Shown piece by piece: positions 7,901 to 28,326 of a stretch of DNA of 28,326 nucleotides. Each line of letters begins with the position of its first letter. Within the stretch, counting starts at the first letter, position 1. The notes below the pieces were generated by a model that saw nothing but the letters and a program-made list of their open reading frames with translations, was not told the DNA's origin and did not search any database. The translations under genes and the position numbers were made by a program. Source of the DNA: a virus; IMG/VR virus record IMGVR_UViG_3300046388_000092, positions 1 to 28,326 of that record. The stretch is one strand, 5' to 3'.

Positions 7901-10900
7901 TGTTCGAACGCTTGATGCAAGTCCTTAAAGAACTTGTTGGCGTTGAAGGTAAAGGTACAGCGTTTGAAGACGTAGTGTCTGCTTACTCTGACTTAGTGAC
8001 CAAGCAAAAGAAACGCTACGGAGCTGTGGACTATGTTCCAGACTACCAGCGTCGGATGTATGGTACTCGTAGTAGCCGTGCGTTCGCACAGAAGAACGAA
8101 CGAAGCAAGAGCCAAGAAATACAAACCGCTGCTGGTGATATTGAAGTTACCCTTGATGATATTCCAAGAGGTGGAAAGATTGCATTGAGTGGTGTTGAAA
8201 ACTCCCTTAACCGAGTTGAGACAACTAACGACCTTGGTGAACTGCTCGCTGCTGCTGAAAGCAAAGTAGAAGCAGAGCTACGTGCGAACCCCAGCCTCAA
8301 GCCAGAGAGCTTGGAGAAAGGCGGTATCATACAAGCTGCTCAACGATTCAGCGAGCTGACAGGGACTAACAAAGACCTCATTGACTCAGAAGTTAATGCT
8401 GCTGGCAAGGACGCTAATGAGCTACGACGCATCGCTTCTCGTATGTATACAGTGGAATCACTGGCTGCTGGACAAGCTGATATTGTATTCACAAAGGCTC
8501 AAGAGATTAGCCAAAAGGGAACAGGTGTTACTGACGCAGACAAAGCCGTTATGGTTGGTGAGCTGAAGAAAATGCTTCACCTTGTTGCTGCTGGTTCTAA
8601 CCTTCGTCGTGGCTTCGGTCAGGGCTTGCAGTCCACACAGTTCAAACGTGTGCGTCTGTCGCTGTCTGATGTAGAGCTACGTTCTAAAGAGATTCTTAAC
8701 GAGTTCATGGCTAACAACACTTCTGGTAGCTTTGAGACTCTCGTGAACCGTATCCTCCTTGCAGGTGACTCCGACGACCTTATCCAACGTACGCTTGGTA
8801 TTACTAAGCAAGCTCGTAATAGCGATCCTAAAGGATTCATGGAGAAGGCTCAGAACTGGTACGTAAACTCACTGCTGTCTGGTCCCCGCACCTTCATGAA
8901 GAATGCGGTTGGTAATATGATTGCACAGACTCTGTTGCAAGTAGAGACTGCTGTTGGTGGTGTCTTTGTTAACAAGGCTATCACTAAGCACGTCCTCAAG
9001 GAAATGGCTACCCTAGAGTCCTTCCGTGAAGGTATGAGTTTCTTCCTCAAGGCTTACAAGCTGGATGAGCAGATGCTCGACACTGGACGTTCGCCTCTTG
9101 AGAACACTGCTCGTACTGAGCGTCCGTTGTACTTTGAGAATGCTGCACCTGAGCAGACCATGCGACAAGCCTTCAACTGGTTCGGTGAGAACGTAGTCAA
9201 CATCCCGACTAAGCTGCTGCTATCTATGGACGAAGTGTTCAAGCAGTCCATGTTCCGTCAGAATGCCAAGCTTGAGTTCACGCTCAAGGGCATGAAGCTG
9301 GGTATCAAAGACCCTGACGAACTGGCTGAGTACGTGGCTAAGGGTCTCGATACTGTCCTTGTTGATGGTGAACGAGCCTTCGGTAACACTGGTATCATTA
9401 AGTATGCTCAGGATGTCGTAGACACGATGGATGCTGACGCTGTTAAAAAGGGTGGCAAACGTATGCTACCCTCTGAGCGTGGTGCTAAAGTCCAAGAGGT
9501 TATCAACGAGCAAACACAGATGCGAGCCGACAAACTGAAGTCCATCGAGGACGGAGGTCTTGGTATCGAGAACCTTGCAGAGCTTGATAACATCTCTGCT
9601 CGTTCCTTGGAACACGCTCGCTACGGCACGTTCACTAACGACGCTGGTAAGGCTGCTGAACTCGCACAAGCTATTGTACAGACTGTGCCGTTCATGAAGT
9701 TCATCTTCCCCTTTGTTCGTACCCCGATCAATATTCTCAAGTTCTCCTTTGACCGTGCAGCCTTTGCTGCTCCTGAACTTAGTCGTAATGTCTTGGCACG
9801 TATGCCAGATATGCCGATGATTAAGGACGCACAGCAACGCATCCGTCAAGAGCTGGACAGCCGTGACCCAATCGAACGCTCCAGAGCAATCGGTAAGCTG
9901 AGTACGTCAGCAATGATTAACGCTACTCTGTTGTACATGATTACGTCTAATCGTGACCTCCTTACTGGTGGTGGACCCGCTGACCGTAACCAACTCAAGA
10001 CTCTTGAGCAAGCAGGATGGCAACGCTACTCCTTTAAGGTCGGTAACAAGTATGCATCGTTCTCTGGTCTTGACCCAATCGGTACTCACTTCGGTATCCT
10101 TGTTGACTTGGTTGAACAGTTAGATGACGGCAACGAGCTTAATACTACGCTCGCTGAACAAGTCTTCGCTGCTGCTACTATCTCCATGACTCGTAACTTG
10201 ACTGAGAAGTCATACCTCGCTGGTCTTACGCTTCTGTCTGACGCACTGTCTGACCCTGAGAATCGTATGGAGTCCATGATTAACAACCTTGCTGGTGGAT
10301 TCGTTCCTAACATCCTGTACCAAGGTCAATCACTTGGTGGCGATACTACCACTCGTGAAACTCGTAACCTTGCTGACGCTGTTCTCAAGAAGCTTCCTAT
10401 CGGTAACTCTCGCCTCGACCCGAAGCGTAATCTCCTTGGTGAGCCTATCATTGCAGAACAAGTACCGTTTGTTGGTCCATTCAATCCTTCACGCCTATCA
10501 ACTCGTGACGGAGATACTGTCTTCGAAGAGTTGGCACAGCTTGAGCATGGATTTACCAATCCTCGTCCGAAGCTGGAACGTCTCATCGACCTTGACGAAT
10601 ATATCAATGAAGGTGGACAGACAGCTCATGACCGTCGCCTAGAGCTTATGGGTACAACCAAGCTCCGTGGTAAAACACTGCGACAGTCGCTGGAACAACT
10701 TATCAAGAGAAAGCAATACCAGAACCTTAGCACCTTCTCTGAGGGTGGATTCAAGAGTCCTCGTGTTGATGTCCTGAACCGTGTTATCAGTAAGTACCGT
10801 ACGGCTGCTCTACACAAGATGTTTGAAGAGTTCCCTGAAGTACGTCAGAAGTACATGGACATTAAGAAAGCTAAGTACTTGGCAAAGCGTGGAGAAGACG

Positions 10901-10935: not shown

Positions 10936-11164
10936 ATCAAACAAAGACCTACTGGACGAACTGATGGCTTTGACCATCGAGGAACTCCTTACCGTAATCA
11001 AGAGCGGAGAAGCTAGTCCTGCTACACTTAATGTAGCTCGACAAATGCTTCGTGATAACCAAATAACTTGCACTCTGAAGGATAGCAGTCCATTGTCAGA
11101 GCTTGTAGAAGTATTACCGTTCGATGAGTACGCCACAGATACCAGAGAAGCTAAAGGACTTTAG
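10928..11164 (+). CDS. Small terminase subunit (T7 gp18-like DNA maturase A)
   Basis: A 78-residue protein that would recognise concatemeric DNA and regulate the large terminase. The sequence is MSKSNKDLLDELMALTIEEL, then LLTVIKSGEASPATLNVARQML, a helix pattern (GEAxPAxLNxARQxL) shared by small terminases of many marine T7-like phages, and an acidic C-terminus. T7 gp18 is 89 aa. The ATG overlaps the end of the gp16-like gene by 8 bases. Its 3' end overlaps the large terminase by 41 bases in another frame, which implies translational coupling. A longer frame extends upstream to 10781, but that part is only a shadow of the gp16-like gene. Confidence 0.82.
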   Translation: MSKSNKDLLDELMALTIEELLTVIKSGEASPATLNVARQMLRDNQITCTLKDSSPLSELVEVLPFDEYATDTREAKGL

Positions 11165-12800
11165 GAACTTTTTATATTATGTTTGGCACTCGCTGGAACA
11201 AATTAAAAGAGATCCTACTCCCATTCAGTACGATATTGCAGAGTTCATGCAATACGGTCCTAAGCGTGGTGTTATACAAGGTTTTAGAGGCGTGGGTAAG
11301 AGTTGGATTTGTTCTGCTTTCGTTACCCACCAACTCCTGCTTGATCCTTCGAAAAACATACTTGTCGTATCAGCTTCGAAAACTCGTGCTGATGATTTCT
11401 CGACGTTTACTCTGAGACTGCTCCACGAGCTACCGCTCTTAGAACATCTCAAACCTAAAGCTGACCAACGGTTCAGTAAGGTCTCTTTCGATGTTGGACC
11501 CGCCCCAGCATCCCACGCACCCTCTGTTAAGTCATTGGGTATTACCTCCCAGCTTACTGGTAGCCGTGCTGATATTATTGTCGCTGACGACATTGAAGTA
11601 CCTACTAACTCAGCTACGCAAGCTATGCGGGATAAACTGAGCGAACAGATAAAGGAGTTTGATGCTATCCTCAAACCTAACGACTCCTCCAAAGTACTGT
11701 TCCTAGGCACACCACAGTGTGAAGACTCAGTATACAGGAAGCTGGGAGAGCGTGGATATAATCTAAAGGTATGGACATCAGAGACCGTTACTAAACATAA
11801 GAACGAAATCACCTACGGAAGTAGCGTGTCCAGTCTCTGTATCAGCGATACCGAAGGAGAACCTACCGAACCTACCCGATTCACCGAGTTTGACCTCAAC
11901 GAACGGAAAATATCCTACGGTTCTGCGGGGTATGCCCTCCAGTTTATGCTTAATACGTCCCTATCGGACGTTGACCGCTTCCCATTGAAGCTAGGAAACC
12001 TGATTGTTCACGATATTGACGTGGATATGGCTCCTGAGAAGCTGATATGGGCGCAATCACCCGACTTAGAGTGGACTAACCTACCCTGTGTAGGACTCCG
12101 TGGTGACCGATTCTACCGCCCTATGAAGGTTGTAGGAGATATGGTCCCATATACTGGCTCTGTTCTCGCTATTGACCCCTCTGGTCGTGGTAAGGACGAA
12201 ACAGGATACGCTGTAGCTAAGATGCTTAACGGTAATCTATACATTCCTGACGCTGGTGGACTCAGTGGTGGCTACGAAGAAGACACTTTGTTGGCTCTTG
12301 TTCGTCTAGCAAAGCTACACAAGGTCAATAAGATCGTTGTTGAGTCCAATTTCGGTGACGGTATGTTCACACAGCTTATAATGCCTCTGTTACGTCGAGA
12401 ATACCCTTGTTCTATCGAAGAGGTACGGCACTCTCAACAGAAAGAAAAGCGCATTATAGACACCTTAGAACCCCTTCTAGGTGGTCACAGGCTCATTATC
12501 GACCCGAAGGTGATCGAAAAAGATTTTAAAACTGCTCAAAAGTATCCAGCAGAGCAGCAACTGCACTATATGTTGTGCCACCAAATGACCAGAATAACCT
12601 CTGGTAGAGGCTCTATCCGTCATGATGACCGTCTCGATGCCTTGGCTATCGCCTGTAACTATTGGGTAGAACAAATGGCTCAGGATGTAAATGAGAAGAT
12701 ACAGGATAGAAAAGAACAATTACTGCGTGAAGAGCTGGACAAGTTCAAAGATACCTACTACAAACGTAAGAATAATAACAATCATATTTCATGGATATAG
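11124..12800 (+). CDS. Large terminase subunit (T7 gp19-like)
   Basis: A 558-residue packaging motor: an ATPase that pumps DNA into the prohead and a nuclease that cuts the concatemer. ATPase motifs: Walker A GFRGVGKS (residues 53-60) and Walker B IIVADDIE with D155/D156 and E158. A coupling-type segment follows (VLFLGTP). The RNase H-like nuclease domain shows VLAIDPSGRGKDE with D351, VVESNF with E407 and HDDRLDALAIA with D505. Length matches T7 gp19 (586 aa). The ATG lies inside the small terminase gene. The next gene starts 10 bases before its stop. No key residue appears missing. Confidence 0.95.
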   Translation: MSTPQIPEKLKDFRNFLYYVWHSLEQIKRDPTPIQYDIAEFMQYGPKRGVIQGFRGVGKSWICSAFVTHQLLLDPSKNILVVSASKTRADDFSTFTLRLLHELPLLEHLKPKADQRFSKVSFDVGPAPASHAPSVKSLGITSQLTGSRADIIVADDIEVPTNSATQAMRDKLSEQIKEFDAILKPNDSSKVLFLGTPQCEDSVYRKLGERGYNLKVWTSETVTKHKNEITYGSSVSSLCISDTEGEPTEPTRFTEFDLNERKISYGSAGYALQFMLNTSLSDVDRFPLKLGNLIVHDIDVDMAPEKLIWAQSPDLEWTNLPCVGLRGDRFYRPMKVVGDMVPYTGSVLAIDPSGRGKDETGYAVAKMLNGNLYIPDAGGLSGGYEEDTLLALVRLAKLHKVNKIVVESNFGDGMFTQLIMPLLRREYPCSIEEVRHSQQKEKRIIDTLEPLLGGHRLIIDPKVIEKDFKTAQKYPAEQQLHYMLCHQMTRITSGRGSIRHDDRLDALAIACNYWVEQMAQDVNEKIQDRKEQLLREELDKFKDTYYKRKNNNNHISWI

Positions 12801-13039: not shown

Positions 13040-13075
13040 CTTTTCTGTTGTTGTATTCATAACATAAATGTGGTT

Positions 13076-13112
13076 GGAGCCGTCTCTGTTGTGTGTCAGA
13101 GGCGGTTCCTTT
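13076..13112 (+). terminator. Terminator-like hairpin after the packaging genes
   Basis: A 13-base-pair stem, with two G-U pairs, joins 13076-13088 to 13097-13109. The loop is 8 bases (TTGTGTGT) and a short T/C-rich tract follows. It lies 37 bases after the last late gene. The U-run is short, so it may be an attenuator-type site or an RNA-stability hairpin for late mRNA. Confidence 0.65.
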
Positions 13113-13570: not shown

Positions 13571-13593
13571 GGGGTTGACAGGGTTGTTATAAT
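13571..13593 (+). promoter_or_regulatory. Promoter-like motif before the early genes (copy A)
   Basis: GGGGTTGACAG, three bases, then TG-T-TATAAT. The TGnTATAAT part is a perfect extended -10 element of a bacterial sigma70 promoter. The TTGACA is only 7 bases upstream of it, so it cannot act as a normal -35. The same arrangement with the same spacing occurs at 15758. The first early gene starts 72 bases downstream. Confidence 0.5.
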
Positions 13594-13664
13594 GAAGGGG
13601 CAAATCAATCCGATCACTGCCAAGCCAAGCACGGCGACATAACACATCAAGGAAACACACGATT

Positions 13665-13784
13665 ATGACAAACACCGCAAAAACCACAAAAGTAGCTAAA
13701 GCTAAACGCAGTAAAACCGACAAGGTTTCTCCGAACGTAGCTCGAATCCAACGCCAACTCGGAGCTACGCTGTTACCTTGGTAA
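13665..13784 (+). CDS. First early gene, 39-residue basic peptide
   Basis: A short protein starting MTNTAKTTKVAKAKRSKTDK and ending QRQLGATLLPW. It is rich in Lys and Arg with no hydrophobic segment, so it may bind nucleic acid or a host protein. I do not recognise it. Support comes from position (first frame after the promoter-like motif), an AAGGA sequence 11 bases upstream of the ATG, and a CACACGATTATG start context like its neighbours. It is too short to be sure. T7-like phages often open the early region with small host-takeover proteins. Confidence 0.5.
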   Translation: MTNTAKTTKVAKAKRSKTDKVSPNVARIQRQLGATLLPW

Positions 13785-13828
13785 CAATCACACATCTGAT
13801 AATCACCCACAGTAAACCACACACAATT

Positions 13829-14029
13829 ATGGCTAAATATACTACAACAACTTACACCGACAACAGTGCTAAAGCAATTCATCGAGACCTGTCTTGGGCA
13901 GATGCTAAAAGCATTTGCTCAAAGGCAAGCGAAAGTGGCTACGCCGAAATTACCTACGGTAAAGATGTCGTTTGTCGCTCCGTCTTCGTACCTACTTGGG
14001 CAGTCGAAATCGACCGCTCACACCTCTAG
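13829..14029 (+). CDS. Small early protein, 66 residues, unknown
   Basis: The sequence begins MAKYTTTTYTDNSAKAIHRD and contains SWADAKSICSKASESGYAEITYGKDVVCRSV, which looks like a small mixed alpha-beta fold of the kind common in phage early genes. I do not recognise the family. I chose the ATG at 13829 because it follows the CCACACACAATT leader that also precedes the gene at 14758. An upstream GTG at 13778 would run through the leader of the previous gene. The 44-base spacer before the ATG has only two G residues and no Shine-Dalgarno sequence. Confidence 0.6.
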   Translation: MAKYTTTTYTDNSAKAIHRDLSWADAKSICSKASESGYAEITYGKDVVCRSVFVPTWAVEIDRSHL

Positions 14030-14072
14030 TCTGCACAGATCATCTATGACAAAAGTAAGGCAAAAACTCGCC

Positions 14073-14726
14073 ATGAAAAAAACCACAATCAAATCCATCG
14101 AGGCTACCGTAGGTAGTTTATCCGCTCCGTCTAAGATGCCATGCCACGGCTTTAGCTTACCAGCTAAGGACTGCAAGGTTGGCTCTAAGCTACGCTTGTC
14201 TGAGAAGTCTACCTGTTCTTCATGCTACGCCCTGAAGGGCAGATACGTCTTCCCTAGCGTCCAGAATGCTCTACAGAGCAGACTCGACAAGCTCAAGTCT
14301 ATGACTTCAGACAGTTGGGCAGACAGCATGAGCGACCTCATCTTCCGTAAGGAAAAGTCTGGCTACTTCAGATGGCATGACTCAGGTGACTTACAGTCAC
14401 TGGAGCATCTCGAAGCTATTGCCAAGGTCGCAGTTAATCTTCCTAAGATTAAATTCTGGTTGCCGACTCGTGAGTATAAGATTGTTAAATCTTATGTAGA
14501 CAAACACGGCTCGTTCCCATCCAATCTAACCGTAAGGTTATCTGCCTACTTCAAACAGTCAGCACCGCCCACCGAAACCGCAGACAAGATTGACGCAGTT
14601 TGCTCGACCGTAGGCTACAAGGCAAGCAAACACATCTGTCCTTCAGGACAACAAGGCAACAAGTGCCTCGACTGCCGAGCTTGCTGGAATCGTAGCGTAG
14701 CTAACGTTGACTATCCTCTCCACTAG
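14073..14726 (+). CDS. Gp88-like Cys-rich phage protein
   Basis: A 217-residue protein resembling, from memory, the phage family called gene product 88 (GP88), whose function is unknown. Typical phrases are visible: MPCHGFSLPAKDC (C24, C34), STCSSCYALKGRYV (C48, C51), YFRWHDSGDL (98-107), KFWLPTRE (127-134), LTVRLSAY (152-159), and a Cys-rich C-terminus with C177, C189, C198, C201 and C204 in KCLDCRACW. Nine cysteines in CxxC and CxxCxxC spacing suggest a metal or Fe-S site. The start is uncertain: the ATG at 14046 adds MTKVRQKLA. I prefer 14073, where TAAGG lies about 12 bases upstream. It sits inside the early cassette, so a host-takeover role is possible. Confidence 0.75.
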   Translation: MKKTTIKSIEATVGSLSAPSKMPCHGFSLPAKDCKVGSKLRLSEKSTCSSCYALKGRYVFPSVQNALQSRLDKLKSMTSDSWADSMSDLIFRKEKSGYFRWHDSGDLQSLEHLEAIAKVAVNLPKIKFWLPTREYKIVKSYVDKHGSFPSNLTVRLSAYFKQSAPPTETADKIDAVCSTVGYKASKHICPSGQQGNKCLDCRACWNRSVANVDYPLH

Positions 14727-14757
14727 AATAACCACACACAATCCAACACACACAGTT

Positions 14758-15177
14758 ATGATTACACCACACAAAAATCGCTCCATCGACCGTACCAAAC
14801 CTGTAAAGGTTTATTGGAATCTTCACCGTGACTGCTACTCCGTCCAACAGGACGGTCTAGTGGTAGCTCATGCCGACCAAGTCGAGCTACGTGCCGTGAC
14901 CTTCAAGGTCAGCGAGTCAGGCAGACAGCGTGTACTAAAAGAGCGTAAGAAAAACGTCCACGCTTTTGTCGTTGGCTTTATCGACGATGCTCTAGCTCGT
15001 TACTGGGACATAAAGATTGTATACAATCCTTACAAGTACGACAGCTTTCGGCTCTGGACTGACGACCGTGTAACGGTACAGTCGGCTGAGGCTGTTATCC
15101 TGCGGATACGAAACGGCAGAGGTGACATCCTTGCTGAGCGCACCACAGGCAAGCCATACTGGTCTGCCTATAAATAA
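14758..15177 (+). CDS. Conserved-looking early phage protein, 139 residues
   Basis: It has a KPVKVYWNLHRDCYSVQQDG segment (residues 14-33), then GLVVAHADQVELRAVTFKVS and GRQRVLKERKKNVHAFVVGF. I recall this pattern from other phage early genes without any known function. The fold looks beta-rich, with paired strands, and then a basic helix. It has no membrane segment or catalytic motif. The ATG at 14758 is chosen over 14707 because 14707 overlaps the Gp88-like gene and 14758 follows a CACACACAGTT leader. That 31-base spacer holds a single G. Confidence 0.7.
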   Translation: MITPHKNRSIDRTKPVKVYWNLHRDCYSVQQDGLVVAHADQVELRAVTFKVSESGRQRVLKERKKNVHAFVVGFIDDALARYWDIKIVYNPYKYDSFRLWTDDRVTVQSAEAVILRIRNGRGDILAERTTGKPYWSAYK

Positions 15178-15205
15178 CCATCCACATCCAATCCCACACA
15201 GTTAT

Positions 15206-15376
15206 ATGAAAACCACAATTACACTCCGCAAACGAGAAGTCTATGGCAACGAGCTATTCTACGTAGTAGACAGCGAACAAGCCACAGCTATCCAAATCCT
15301 GACAGGACAAAAGACTGTTACGGAACGTAACATCGGAGCTTTGAAACAGCTCGGATACACCATCACCTATGCATAG
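15206..15376 (+). CDS. Small early protein, 56 residues, unknown
   Basis: It begins MKTTITLRKREVYGNELFYV, continues VDSEQATAIQILTGQKTVTERN and ends with ALKQLGYTITYA. It looks like a strand-strand-helix-helix-strand mini-domain. I do not recognise a function. The start follows the CCCACACAGTTAT leader, which again is almost free of G (one in 28 bases). An upstream in-frame start at 15122 lies inside the previous gene and is rejected. Confidence 0.6.
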   Translation: MKTTITLRKREVYGNELFYVVDSEQATAIQILTGQKTVTERNIGALKQLGYTITYA

Positions 15377-15431
15377 TCTGCGTAGTACAATCAAGACAAA
15401 AGTAAAGTGGCGAAACTGCCGAACAAAAATT

Positions 15432-15626
15432 ATGGAATATAAAATCACAATCACATGGAACGATGACGATGTTCGTCATGTAGCAGCACAAATGGGTGTC
15501 TTGCTGAGCGACGAGCAAATCATCAACGTACTCGACTCTATCCTACACAATCACGATCCTGAACTTGGCGTCACATGGGACACCATCGAATGGGCAATCG
15601 AGTCTGAACTTCGACCCGCTAAATAA
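15432..15626 (+). CDS. Small early protein, 64 residues, unknown
   Basis: It begins MEYKITITWNDDDVRHVAAQ and continues with MGVLLSDEQIINVLDSILHNHD, then WDTIEWAIESEL. This resembles a group of short phage proteins with a beta strand followed by two helices; no function is known to me. It is acidic and soluble. The ATG follows an A-rich leader (GAACAAAAATT) with no Shine-Dalgarno sequence. The next gene begins 2 bases after its stop, so the two are probably co-translated. Confidence 0.6.
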   Translation: MEYKITITWNDDDVRHVAAQMGVLLSDEQIINVLDSILHNHDPELGVTWDTIEWAIESELRPAK

Positions 15627-15628
15627 CT

Positions 15629-15811
15629 ATGTTACTACAAATCCTATCCACCTGCAAGCAACTCAATCGCTTGCTCAAATCTAAAGATCCGTACCATGCT
15701 GACCTCGTTGACACCTTACTACGTAAGCTAGACAAGGCAATCCCATCTGATACAGAGGGGGTTGACAGCCATGATATAGTAAAAGCTCTCAAGGATGAGG
15801 CAGACCGCTAA
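15629..15811 (+). CDS. Small helical protein, 60 residues, unknown
   Basis: It begins MLLQILSTCKQLNRLLKSKD and ends SHDIVKALKDEADR. It is helical, charged and has no membrane segment. It starts 2 bases after the preceding stop. The promoter-like motif at 15758 lies inside its last third, so either the motif is embedded in coding sequence or this frame is shorter or spurious. I cannot assign a family. Confidence 0.5.
   Translation: MLLQILSTCKQLNRLLKSKDPYHADLVDTLLRKLDKAIPSDTEGVDSHDIVKALKDEADR
15758..15780 (+). promoter_or_regulatory. Promoter-like motif (copy B)
   Basis: GGGGTTGACAG, three bases, then TG-A-TATAGT. It matches copy A at 13571 in every defined position except one in the -10 element, with identical spacing. 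It could start transcription about 70-90 bases before the DUF932-like gene. Confidence 0.45.
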
Positions 15812-15848
15812 GTCCAACCAACCACATAATCGTAAACGTAAAACGCAT

Positions 15849-16838
15849 ATGAAACAAGACACACACATCGTAAACATCCACAGCAACACTTGGTCAGACA
15901 AGATCACCGACCGCATCGACACCATCGAAGATGCGGGTCTCAATTGGGACGTAGTCAAGACACCTCTGGTAGCTATGCTAGAGGGACGCTACCCACTGCC
16001 ACTAGAGACTCATGTCTCTGTCAACCGTACCGATACCAACCACTCCATAGGAGTAGTGGGTGCTAAGTATGAGCCTATCCAAAACTCTCGTATTTGGGAG
16101 GCTATGCACCAATCCCTTGAGGGTGTAAACCACACCATCCAAGGCTCAGGCTACACCAACGGTGGCTCGAAGGTATTCATACAAACCAAGGTTGACTCCG
16201 ACGACTTCAAGGTCAAAGGTGACGACTTCAATAACTACGTTACCTTCTTCAGCTCACATGACGGAAGCTCTGCTTTCGAGCTGTTCGATACATCTGTTCG
16301 TATCATCTGCACCAACACCGTCCAAGCTGCGAGACGTAAGGGTGGCAAGGCGTTCAAGCTCAAGGTACGTCACACTAGCAATGCTAGCATCCGCTTCGAC
16401 AACGTCATGGATCATCTGGAATCCATCTTCGATGTTCGTAAGCAGACCTATGCTGACCTCAACGAGCTGGCTACCGTAGGTATGAGCTACAACGACCTCA
16501 TCAACTGGTCTACCAGTTTCTTCAACAGCAACAATAAGAAGCTGACTACTGTAAGTAGCAACAAGGCACACGAGGCTCGTCGTCTGGCAATGCATGGCAT
16601 GGGTAACCGTGGCGAAACTGCCTACGATATGCTCAACGGAGTAACGGAGTTACTTACTCACGGTGACCGTCAGTCCAGTCGCAACTCTGCATCTGTCTGG
16701 AAGTCCAGCGAGCTGGGTCATGGTGCTACCACCAAGGCTAAGGCACTCGACCATCTGGTAAACCAGTACCACCGCAACGACCACATCAAACGTGGTCAAG
16801 AGCTACGTCACTTTGGCGAAACAGCACTAGCTGTCTAG
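15849..16838 (+). CDS. DUF932-like phage/plasmid protein
   Basis: A 329-residue protein resembling the DUF932 / phage-plasmid-like family, whose function is not known. Supporting phrases: VGAKYEPIQNSRIWEAM (near residue 75), GGSKVFIQTKVDSDDFKV (about 104-121), NYVTFFSSHDGSSAFELFDTSVRIICTNTVQAA (about 127-160) and FKLKVRHTSNASIRFDNV. The hallmark of the family is the order Y-x-P-I-Q, a middle SHDGSSA, then VRIICTNT. The C-terminal third is Asn/Ser-rich and ends with helical segments. The start at 15849 follows an A-rich leader; 15795 would overlap the previous gene. A small hairpin follows at 16887. Confidence 0.78.
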   Translation: MKQDTHIVNIHSNTWSDKITDRIDTIEDAGLNWDVVKTPLVAMLEGRYPLPLETHVSVNRTDTNHSIGVVGAKYEPIQNSRIWEAMHQSLEGVNHTIQGSGYTNGGSKVFIQTKVDSDDFKVKGDDFNNYVTFFSSHDGSSAFELFDTSVRIICTNTVQAARRKGGKAFKLKVRHTSNASIRFDNVMDHLESIFDVRKQTYADLNELATVGMSYNDLINWSTSFFNSNNKKLTTVSSNKAHEARRLAMHGMGNRGETAYDMLNGVTELLTHGDRQSSRNSASVWKSSELGHGATTKAKALDHLVNQYHRNDHIKRGQELRHFGETALAV

Positions 16839-16886
16839 TCATTATTCATATCATCGTAATTGTGTTACTCGTCCTGAGCATGACGT

Positions 16887-16904
16887 TAAAAGGCTCACCT
16901 TTTA
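16887..16904 (+). terminator. Short hairpin between the DUF932-like and lysis-type genes
   Basis: TAAAAGG pairs with CCTTTTA across a 4-base loop (CTCA). It is followed by AT-rich sequence running into the next start codon at 16909. It could be a weak terminator, an RNA-processing hairpin, or a structure that limits translation of the muramidase. Confidence 0.4.
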
Positions 16905-16908
16905 TATT

Positions 16909-17271
16909 ATGACAATCATCACACTTATACTCGCTATCATCACCGTCGAATCAGGCGGGGACGACAAGGCTATCGGAGACGGAGGCAAAGCATATGGCTG
17001 TCTTCAGCTCCATGCATCCTACGTGGCAGATGCTGCGGAGTATGCTGGTAAAGACTGGAATCATAACGATGCCTTCGACCGTGAGACCGCCATCGACATT
17101 GTACTAGCCTATATGTCTAGGTATGCCACACCAGCTAGGCTGGGACGTAGCGTAACCGCTGAAGACATAGCTCGTATACATAATGGGGGTCCGAATGGGT
17201 ACAAAAAGCCTGCAACCGTAGCCTACTGGAACAAGGTTAAAGCTGTATTGGAGGCAGACAAGATCCGATGA
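16909..17271 (+). CDS. Lytic transglycosylase/lysozyme-like muralytic enzyme
   Basis: A 120-residue peptidoglycan-cutting enzyme and the likely endolysin. The N-terminus TLILAIITVESGGDDKAIGDGGKAYG has a catalytic Glu (E14) in an ESGG context, then the AIGDGGKAYGCLQLH block typical of small SLT-type muramidases, and late in the protein ARIHNGGPNGYKK (about residues 87-99), which matches the family's WNGGPxGxxK element. There is no clear signal peptide: the hydrophobic start is the first catalytic helix. It differs from T7 lysozyme (gp3.5), which is a Zn amidase, and it lies in the early region instead of after endonuclease I. It shares an ATGA overlap with the next gene. Confidence 0.8.
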   Translation: MTIITLILAIITVESGGDDKAIGDGGKAYGCLQLHASYVADAAEYAGKDWNHNDAFDRETAIDIVLAYMSRYATPARLGRSVTAEDIARIHNGGPNGYKKPATVAYWNKVKAVLEADKIR

Positions 17272-17567
17272 ACCACAACAGATTCCTAATCTATCTACCG
17301 CTATGCGAACGGTATCTATGCCACCCGAAGAGCAAGACTGCCAAGGTGTACCACCGTCACCGCAAGGATGACCTGCGTGAGATGGCTCGTGACCTCCATC
17401 AATTTGATGGGGAAGTCGTAGCTCTAACACCAGCGCGTGACGTTGAGATACATGACGGTCTCAGGTATAGCAACACCCGAATGTCGGGAGGCGAGCTTCG
17501 CCTTCAGATGTCCAAATCAGGTGGGGGAGGTACTCACCCTCTGGACGGTACTGAAACGAGCTTCTAG
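17268..17567 (+). CDS. Basic 99-residue protein, unknown
   Basis: Starts inside the stop of the muramidase gene (ATGA overlap), so it is translationally coupled to it. The N-terminal half is basic and Cys/His-containing (CERYLCHPKSKTAKVYHRHRK), the middle has DLHQFDGEVVALTPARDVE, and the end is Gly-rich (KSGGGGTHPLDG). It has no membrane segment, so it is not an obvious holin. I do not recognise it. It is the last gene before the strong terminator at 17608. Confidence 0.6.
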   Translation: MNHNRFLIYLPLCERYLCHPKSKTAKVYHRHRKDDLREMARDLHQFDGEVVALTPARDVEIHDGLRYSNTRMSGGELRLQMSKSGGGGTHPLDGTETSF

Positions 17568-17607
17568 GCATAACCTCGTCCCAGCAATGGGCATTCCTGT
17601 GTGGACA

Positions 17608-17641
17608 AGGGGTCACCTCAAATCGGGGTGACCTCTTTTTG
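17608..17641 (+). terminator. Strong intrinsic terminator ending the early block
   Basis: A 10-base-pair stem (AGGGGTCACC with GGTGACCTCT, one G-U pair) joins 17608-17617 to 17627-17636. The loop is 9 bases and a run of T follows (17636-17640). This is a textbook rho-independent terminator. It separates the early cassette from the RNA polymerase gene, so the polymerase needs its own promoter or read-through. Confidence 0.85.
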
Positions 17642-17655
17642 TGTCAAGATAAAGC

Positions 17656-17685
17656 TTGACTCACCCCTTTATGTATAATTATATA
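17656..17685 (+). promoter_or_regulatory. Possible host sigma70 promoter before the RNA polymerase gene
   Basis: TTGACT (17656-17661), an 18-base spacer, then TATATA (17680-17685). A better -10 match, TATAAT at 17674, is only 12 bases from the -35. The region is very AT-rich, so chance matches are likely. Confidence 0.35.
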
Positions 17686-17713
17686 TTATTTAATAACTTG
17701 TTAAAACAATTGT

Positions 17714-17727
17714 TATACAATTGTATA
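17714..17727. promoter_or_regulatory. Perfect 14-base palindrome, possible operator 1
   Basis: TATACAATTGTATA is its own reverse complement. It overlaps a second palindrome, AACAATTGTT (17705-17714). It lies 95-110 bases upstream of the RNA polymerase start and just after the promoter candidate. Confidence 0.5.
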
Positions 17728-17758
17728 TACTACTGTTATAGCTACTTAAAGAAAGAGT

Positions 17759-17776
17759 TATACAATATGTTGTATA
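17759..17776. promoter_or_regulatory. Inverted repeat with the same half-sites, possible operator 2
   Basis: TATACAA, a 4-base spacer (TATG), then TTGTATA. The half-sites are identical to those of the palindrome at 17714, and the centres are about 47 bases apart. The 10-mer GTTATACAAT also occurs at both sites (17712 and 17757). Confidence 0.5.
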
Positions 17777-27918: not shown

Positions 27919-28326
27919 ATGCCAAACATAACAGTATCTTCTTCAGTTGACTCAATGCTGAGAGCTTCCGATGCCCCCAGCATTCGTGACGCTATCGGGT
28001 CAATCAACTACCCTTACACAACGGACTTTATTTCAGGCACAGAGCAGACGAGAAACCTGACGAGTATCACTAACTCATCTGGTTATACTTACAATAACAA
28101 CCTCACATCTATCTATGTTGGAAGTAACGTGACTACGCTTGGGAGTTCGGCTTTTGCTTACTGCGCAAACCTTACCAGTGCAAACATTCCCGATAGCGTG
28201 ACTACGATTGGGGGCGCGGCTTTTGATTACTGCAGCAGTCTTACCAGTGTAACTATTCCTGATAGCGTAACTTCGATTGGGGGTAGTACTTTTCGTCGAT
28301 GCGCCAGTCTTACCAGCGCAACCATT
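27919..28326 (+). CDS. BspA-type leucine-rich-repeat protein, N-terminal part (cut by window end)
   Basis: The first 136 residues of a protein that runs past the right edge. The N-terminus contains SVDSMLRASDAPSIRDAIGS, a short module common in phage tail proteins (L-x-A-S-x-x-x-x-x-R-x-A-[IL]-G). From residue 62 it is made of 23-residue repeats (LTSxxIPDSVTTIGxxAFxYCxS), the hallmark of BspA / LRR_5 repeats known from bacterial surface adhesins. I infer a virion-attached adhesin or second receptor-binding protein. The start is 6 bases after the previous stop. Total length is unknown. Confidence 0.75.
   Translation, partial: MPNITVSSSVDSMLRASDAPSIRDAIGSINYPYTTDFISGTEQTRNLTSITNSSGYTYNNNLTSIYVGSNVTTLGSSAFAYCANLTSANIPDSVTTIGGAAFDYCSSLTSVTIPDSVTSIGGSTFRRCASLTSATI
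28102..28326 (+). repeat. 69-base tandem repeats encoding LRR units
   Basis: Units start at 28102, 28171, 28240 and 28309 (the last cut by the window end). Units 2 and 3 are very similar at the DNA level, for example in CTTACCAGTG and GATAGCGT; unit 1 is more divergent. Such repeats can gain or lose units by slippage or recombination. Confidence 0.75.

Follow-up and report, generated by a model that had tools for sequence, protein, structure and literature searches.

Repeated elements placed before the starts of unrelated genes have been described in Cluster K mycobacteriophages, where SAS/ESAS, a short asymmetric repeat, occurs in one orientation before unrelated non-structural gene starts (PMC3203893). 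In enteric bacteria, ACA motifs enhance translation and are silenced by the GU-rich GcvB RNA (PMC3879156). Moreover, open local structure suffices for starts lacking a Shine–Dalgarno (SD) sequence, and a survey of such starts found no conserved sequence motif among them (PMC3121790). Tandem type II hammerhead ribozymes in polycistronic RNAs are already known as well (RF02276, PMC3088659). A literature search restricted to a collection of open-access papers yielded none on repeated phage leaders made only of A and C, on the pairing of such leaders with hammerheads, or on a late antisense element directed to leaders.

The DNA considered here, hereafter the window, is the whole analyzed stretch of 28,326 bases, a virus contig that shows the gene order of T7-like phages:

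11124-12800: terminase
13575-13594, + strand: TTGACA-N7-TATAATG, a promoter-like site (putative promoter) upstream of the early cassette
about 13600-17600: early cassette
17823: single-subunit RNA polymerase
21134: primase/helicase
23287: DNA polymerase

The nearest named phages are marine, the terminase being 65% identical to that of uncultured phage MedDCM-OCT-S45-C18, followed by Roseobacter and Pelagibacter phages, and DNA similarity between named phages and the window is limited to 66 nt of the terminase gene. The close relatives are uncultivated virus contigs, designated by numbers with the prefix L, and L186 is among the nearer ones (terminase 81%, DUF932 protein 72%). Early gene content varies between these close relatives. 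In genome collections, where phage-like contigs were found, the best terminase matches are scattered over bins of unrelated taxa, and no host is therefore assigned. A tRNA-Leu(CAA) present in two relatives (L011, 8559-8644; L092, 7226-7311) is a possible host clue.

The promoter-like site is kept in L009, L011, L018, L023, L026, L092, L095, L096, L101 and L186. Its spacing is unfit for a two-hexamer sigma-70 promoter, and TGTTATAAT fits an extended -10 element. At the other end of the early cassette, a strong terminator hairpin is followed by two 29-nt repeats ending in TTATACAAT (hairpin and repeats together 17607-17766), located ahead of the RNA polymerase gene. A lysozyme-like ORF with Pfam Destabilase and SLT matches (16909-17271) also precedes this gene in the early part, and two tandem 69-nt repeats (28125-28262) lie within the last open ORF of the window.

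Four leaders in the early cassette are rich in A and C, at least at their ends:

13641-13664, + strand: leader of the first early ORF (13665), with an A/C-rich end and AAGGA upstream
13785-13828, + strand: A/C-rich leader of ORF 13829, 44 nt with 2 G, a longer variant ending in CACACAATT-ATG
14727-14757, + strand: A/C-rich leader of ORF 14758, 31 nt with 1 G, running from stop codon to start codon
15178-15205, + strand: A/C-rich leader of ORF 15206, 28 nt with 1 G, running from stop codon to start codon

The G counts that the first-pass annotation had given for the last three are exact. The ORF at 14758 encodes a member of the family of phage L5 gp82-like proteins (Pfam PF25735). The same annotation had described a motif consisting of CACACA followed by (A/G)TTATG, of which only the long form stands above chance: CACACARTTAT occurs three times in the window versus 0.08 expected and ACACRRTTATG three times versus 0.03 expected, a number reached for either motif in none of 100 shuffles. 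CACACA by itself shows no excess in the window (17 occurrences versus 19.5 expected) and is merely clustered near the early leaders, which rules it out as a signal on its own; likewise, a 12-mer with two mismatches permitted falls to background level. What carries the information is the longer leader anchored at the ATG rather than CACACA. In the leader of ORF 15206, the start is displaced by two bases (CACACAGTTAT-ATG), a departure from the motif as first described. The leader of ORF 13665, listed there as similar, does share the A/C-rich end, but it also contains AAGGA, which resembles an SD although its spacing is long (duplex -5.4 kcal/mol). The leader stands at just three of about nine early starts in the window; starts 14073, 15432, 15629 and 15849 do not have it, and two of these (14073 and 15432) are preceded by another repeated element, module D, described below.

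A search of the relatives, also suggested by the first-pass annotation, revealed that the leader is common there before many genes. Starting from 12 distinct seed leaders, a profile was grown that found 55 sites in 17 contigs, all of them on the coding strand and none on the opposite strand, versus 0-1 sites in locally shuffled sequence. These sites precede 48 ORFs from 21 protein families, and 54 of the 55 end exactly at the ATG. As a control for circularity, a second profile was built from the relatives only, with the ATG columns omitted; even so, an ATG directly follows 42 of its 44 matches in the relatives. Applied to the window, this profile ranks the leaders of ORFs 15206, 14758 and 13829 first to third (22.2, 19.3 and 13.8 bits), compared with 3.6 bits for the next non-overlapping site, 6.1 for the best site of the other strand and 6.7 for the mean best of local shuffles. 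Chance or base composition as the origin of the leaders is ruled out by the local shuffles and the strand control. In L023, L027, L028 and L101, many leaders are exactly the 24-27 nt between a stop codon and the next ATG, and in the distant relatives L003, L034, L039, L041 and L050 the A/C composition is retained and the exact sequence differs. The leaders of the window thus represent, locally, a leader that marine T7-like phages of one clade use again and again, a finding larger than first described. In some relatives, a gene of about 498 codons that lies well beyond the early cassette also has an A/C-rich leader (L092, 10876-10908; L198, 6668-6697; L199, 9470-9499).

The layout resembles that of SAS, the nearest described phage feature, in that a repeat of one orientation stands right before the starts of unrelated non-structural genes and is frequently preceded by a further, structured element. 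However, the SAS consensus GGGATAGGAGCCC contains the SD core AGGAG, whereas the leaders described here have 1-2 G and no anti-SD pairing, and the element upstream of SAS is a 17-bp inverted repeat, in place of which the relatives have hammerhead ribozymes and another hairpin module. The leader is thus not a member of SAS and is alike in layout only.

Use of SD sequences was scored as a duplex of -4 kcal/mol or stronger with a generic anti-SD. By this measure, SD-type duplexes precede 100% of starts in T7, 81% in Roseobacter phage CRP-118 and 64% in Pelagibacter phage HTVC304P. The corresponding values for the window are 20% of early starts, which were picked by reading so that a few may be off, and 11% of the other starts (n = 18), versus 22-24% of random positions. 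The other starts thus stay below even the random value of 24%, from which it follows that SD sequences are avoided phage-wide, and the claim that CA leaders replace SD sequences in the early cassette alone does not hold, late genes being SD-poor too. The strong site that had been contrasted with the early leaders does exist at the DNA polymerase gene, but it is the exception among the SD-poor starts of the window.

Absence of SD and absence of structure, both claimed for the leaders from the start, are borne out, and with them the case for SD-independent initiation: the leaders of ORFs 13829, 14758 and 15206 show no anti-SD pairing, and the mean unpaired probability of the window leaders is 0.72-0.83 (0.76 on average for leaders of relatives), compared with 0.57 on average for the remaining starts and 0.41 ± 0.08 for random positions of the window. 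Two leaders fold at only -0.3 (ORF 14758) and -1.0 kcal/mol. The early leaders also differ from late ones in composition, with 37% versus 21% C and with 3-7 ACA triplets per 40 nt versus 0.67 at late starts and 0.83 in random 40-mers. Late leaders are A/T-rich and have no common sequence; G makes up 11.7% of the 20 nt preceding late starts versus 23% genome-wide. The early leaders are, in sum, a special ACA-rich and homogenized form of the SD-free initiation used throughout the phage. With the SD-less starts surveyed earlier (PMC3121790) they share the missing SD and an open start codon region, but those starts had no motif, whereas here one sequence is reused. The stop-to-start layout inside the cassette makes leaderless mRNAs unlikely for these genes.

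In the relatives, larger modules often stand upstream of the leaders and are exchanged from junction to junction. One of them, found directly before the A/C leader and often in tandem, matches the type II hammerhead model RF02276 at 33 bits (E 5.6e-5), slightly short of the gathering threshold of 37. It contains the core CUGANGA, the GAAA and the cleavage-site C, with stems I and III closed and stem II open. Among 20 distinct copies, 97% of cells are paired and both sides have changed in 10 of 15 pairs, and the covariation score is 0.64 versus 0.17 for shuffles and at most 0.14 when slid. Judged from these features, the module is a type II hammerhead ribozyme with predicted self-cleavage. It agrees with known type II hammerheads in core residues, fold, covariation and occurrence as several copies between genes; what differs is that hammerheads are routine parts of phage early operons here, with the A/C leader directly after them. 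Positions of copies in three of the contigs are:

L186: 6295, 7460, 7901 and 8909, four hammerheads in one early region, the maximum
L023: hammerheads at 8652, 9522 and 10974
L092: hammerheads at 1249, 2387 and 3808

Further hammerheads, likewise between genes, occur in L095, L101, L011, L024, L028, L034, L039 and L197. The window has none, though its nearer relative L186 has four. A hammerhead-like sequence was also seen at 5084 of L136, a T7-like phage contig binned as Neomarinimicrobiota.

The second module, D, occupies the same junctions as hammerheads do in relatives and is present twice in the window:

14030-14072, + strand: module D copy 1, a conserved stretch and a small hairpin before ORF 14073 (GP88 family)
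15377-15431, + strand: module D copy 2, before ORF 15432

It reads TAGTCTGCGYAG..CAATC..GACAAA(A)GT and continues into a small hairpin, the two arms of which covary when the hairpins are read singly; RNAalifold found no structure in the raw module D alignment, in which the hairpins are misaligned. About 30 copies exist in L009, L011, L023-L028, L092, L095-L097, L100 and L101. An Rfam search of the window and of module D returned nothing believable, and the module could be a new ribozyme, a protein site or a processing site. The third module is a repeated leader before different genes:

L011 2687-2726 and L028 11870-11908, also in L026, L027, L095 and L097: leader TGCCTAGCTTCGGCATAACACAGGAAGC-AACACACAWTATG

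From its sequence, TGCCTAGCTTCGGCATAACACAGGAAGC may form an H-type pseudoknot holding AGGA.

Taken together, the leader is quite probably a reused, SD-free translation-start module of the enhancer type, belonging to this clade of marine T7-like phages. Transcription of the early genes would probably begin at the promoter-like site near 13575-13594 and yield a single polycistronic RNA. In this RNA, the gaps between a stop codon and the next ATG are often filled by about 25-31 nt of nearly pure A/C sequence ending in ACACARTT-ATG, which, according to the computed folds and duplexes, barely pairs with itself and offers no complement to the anti-SD. Such a leader would presumably hold the start codon open and, being ACA-rich and single-stranded, serve as the place where the small ribosomal subunit lands, perhaps by way of ribosomal protein S1, as published ACA and CA-repeat enhancers suggest. 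Since the phage avoids SD sequences throughout the window, its host probably starts many genes in an SD-free manner, and the early leaders would represent a standardized and probably stronger version of this mode. A leader made only of A and C would also remain apart from upstream ribozymes and hairpins. As in the enteric ACA enhancers (PMC3879156), the sequence is C/A-rich, contains ACA, is single-stranded and could pair with a GU-rich RNA; the enteric motifs, however, act with a downstream SD, which is missing here. It also speaks against the enhancer reading that this phage initiates its late genes with neither an SD nor the leader, and that within the clade the leader sequence is more uniform than openness alone requires. 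The uniformity points to an additional reader, RNA or protein, or to recombination.

A candidate for such a reader is a GU-rich element (13058-13096) at the 3' end of the late operon that contains the terminase gene:

13058-13077, + strand: CATAAC, which complements GTTATG, together with TGTGGTTGG; these form the upstream half of the candidate antisense element
13076-13109, + strand: terminator-like hairpin 3' of the terminase operon (z -6.2), with loop TTGTGTGT at 13089-13096

The loop TTGTGTGT is the reverse complement of ACACACAA in the leaders, and TGTGGTTGG, upstream of the hairpin, is complementary to their CCAA/CACA. It can be proposed, as a tentative reading that falls somewhat short of even chances, that one phage RNA reads all the leaders, this candidate antisense at the 3' end of the late transcript shutting off the early genes at late onset. 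The leaders would then stay near-identical because the antisense RNA reads them, an explanation that adds to the start module without excluding it. Because GcvB, a GU-rich RNA, silences such enhancers in enteric bacteria, the idea is plausible, although not proven; the candidate differs from GcvB in being phage-encoded at the end of a late operon and in also covering the start codon.

As a test of this proposal, the + strand of each contig was scanned in sliding windows of 30 nt for the place of strongest pairing to the contig's own leaders. In 12 contigs with CA leaders, the best site within 650 nt 3' of the terminase ranks first in eight, second in three and fourth in one, and a looser leader definition adds L009 with rank 8. 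Eight further contigs gave rank 1 in five cases and ranks 2, 4 and 9 in the others. With a generic leader as probe, seven contigs that have few CA leaders or none gave ranks 2, 4, 8, 10, 10, 11 and 17. In many contigs, but not in every one, pairing is weaker when the leaders are shuffled; for L186, the most informative of the eight further contigs, whose element has a different sequence (CATAAGTGTGTGTGTG), the z score is -7.9 versus -2.8 to -3.8 for shuffled leaders. The GU element of L186 folds by itself no better than shuffles, and a stable seed hairpin is therefore not general; the terminator loop of this contig holds GTGTGT. The motif CATAA..TGTG[T/G], in which the anti-start precedes the GU repeat and which occurs in three unrelated sequence versions, is found 16 times in 14.3 kb of post-terminase region and once in 231 kb elsewhere, and GU runs of at least 7 are present in the post-terminase region of 11 of 15 contigs with CA leaders versus none of six without; both the motif and the region were, however, defined post hoc, after some sites had been seen, and many of the contigs are closely related. 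In L039, 12 nt match the contig's own variant leader perfectly, but a swap test of elements against the leaders of other contigs showed no general preference for the own leader set. Moreover, L197, L009 and L193 are weak, the best site may fall inside a gene in some contigs (e.g., L041), and CATAA overlaps the stop codon of the preceding gene in some clades. Also, the right end of the genome, where the element sits, is the expected place of a packaging site or a phage promoter, and either of these is a fair alternative.

An ordinary explanation is that the host is SD-free and that the leaders mirror its taste for open, G-poor sequences, with the repeat being incidental. The late genes, SD-poor and G-poor in the same way, agree with this, but they share no sequence, whereas the early leaders share one across 21 protein families, and this explanation is considered unlikely. 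Slightly less likely still is that the leaders are recombination joints, i.e., short identical intergenic sequences that serve early gene exchange and are kept alike by recombination. The variable early gene content fits such a role, as does the finding that the same stop codon (GTTACCTTGGTAA) is followed by a hammerhead in L092 and by the plain leader in L009 and the window. However, recombination leaves unexplained both the exact ending at ATG and the A/C-only composition that persists despite sequence change, and joints of this kind can be a by-product of the start module. That each leader is a DNA operator or a promoter, used by the RNA polymerase of the phage or of the host, is very improbable and was rejected for promoters: repetition on a single strand at gene starts would suit it, but the leaders are confined to the early cassette, being absent before the late genes of the window, contain no canonical hexamers and have a fixed distance to ATG that would make leaderless RNAs from every gene.

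The start module thus remains the preferred reading of the leader. Combined with the candidate antisense element, it leads to a more speculative proposal, held with a little less confidence than the antisense reading itself, in which the phage would encode both halves of a switch: an A/C-only, SD-free start signal and, beside the terminator at the late 3' end, an antisense copy (anti-start CAUAA and GU repeats), which, from the onset of late transcription, would shut down translation of all the early genes that bear the signal. In relatives, the predicted tandem hammerheads would also cut the early RNA at sites between genes.

It is an open question by what rule ribosomes select SD-free starts, which usually have no sequence motif. 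Dozens of SD-free leaders that are nearly identical yet precede unrelated genes make this rule directly testable. The tandem hammerheads would offer a natural case of ribozyme cleavage shaping a phage operon. Moreover, if the late antisense element works, it would constitute an RNA-only early-to-late switch in a lytic phage, with one target common to many early genes.
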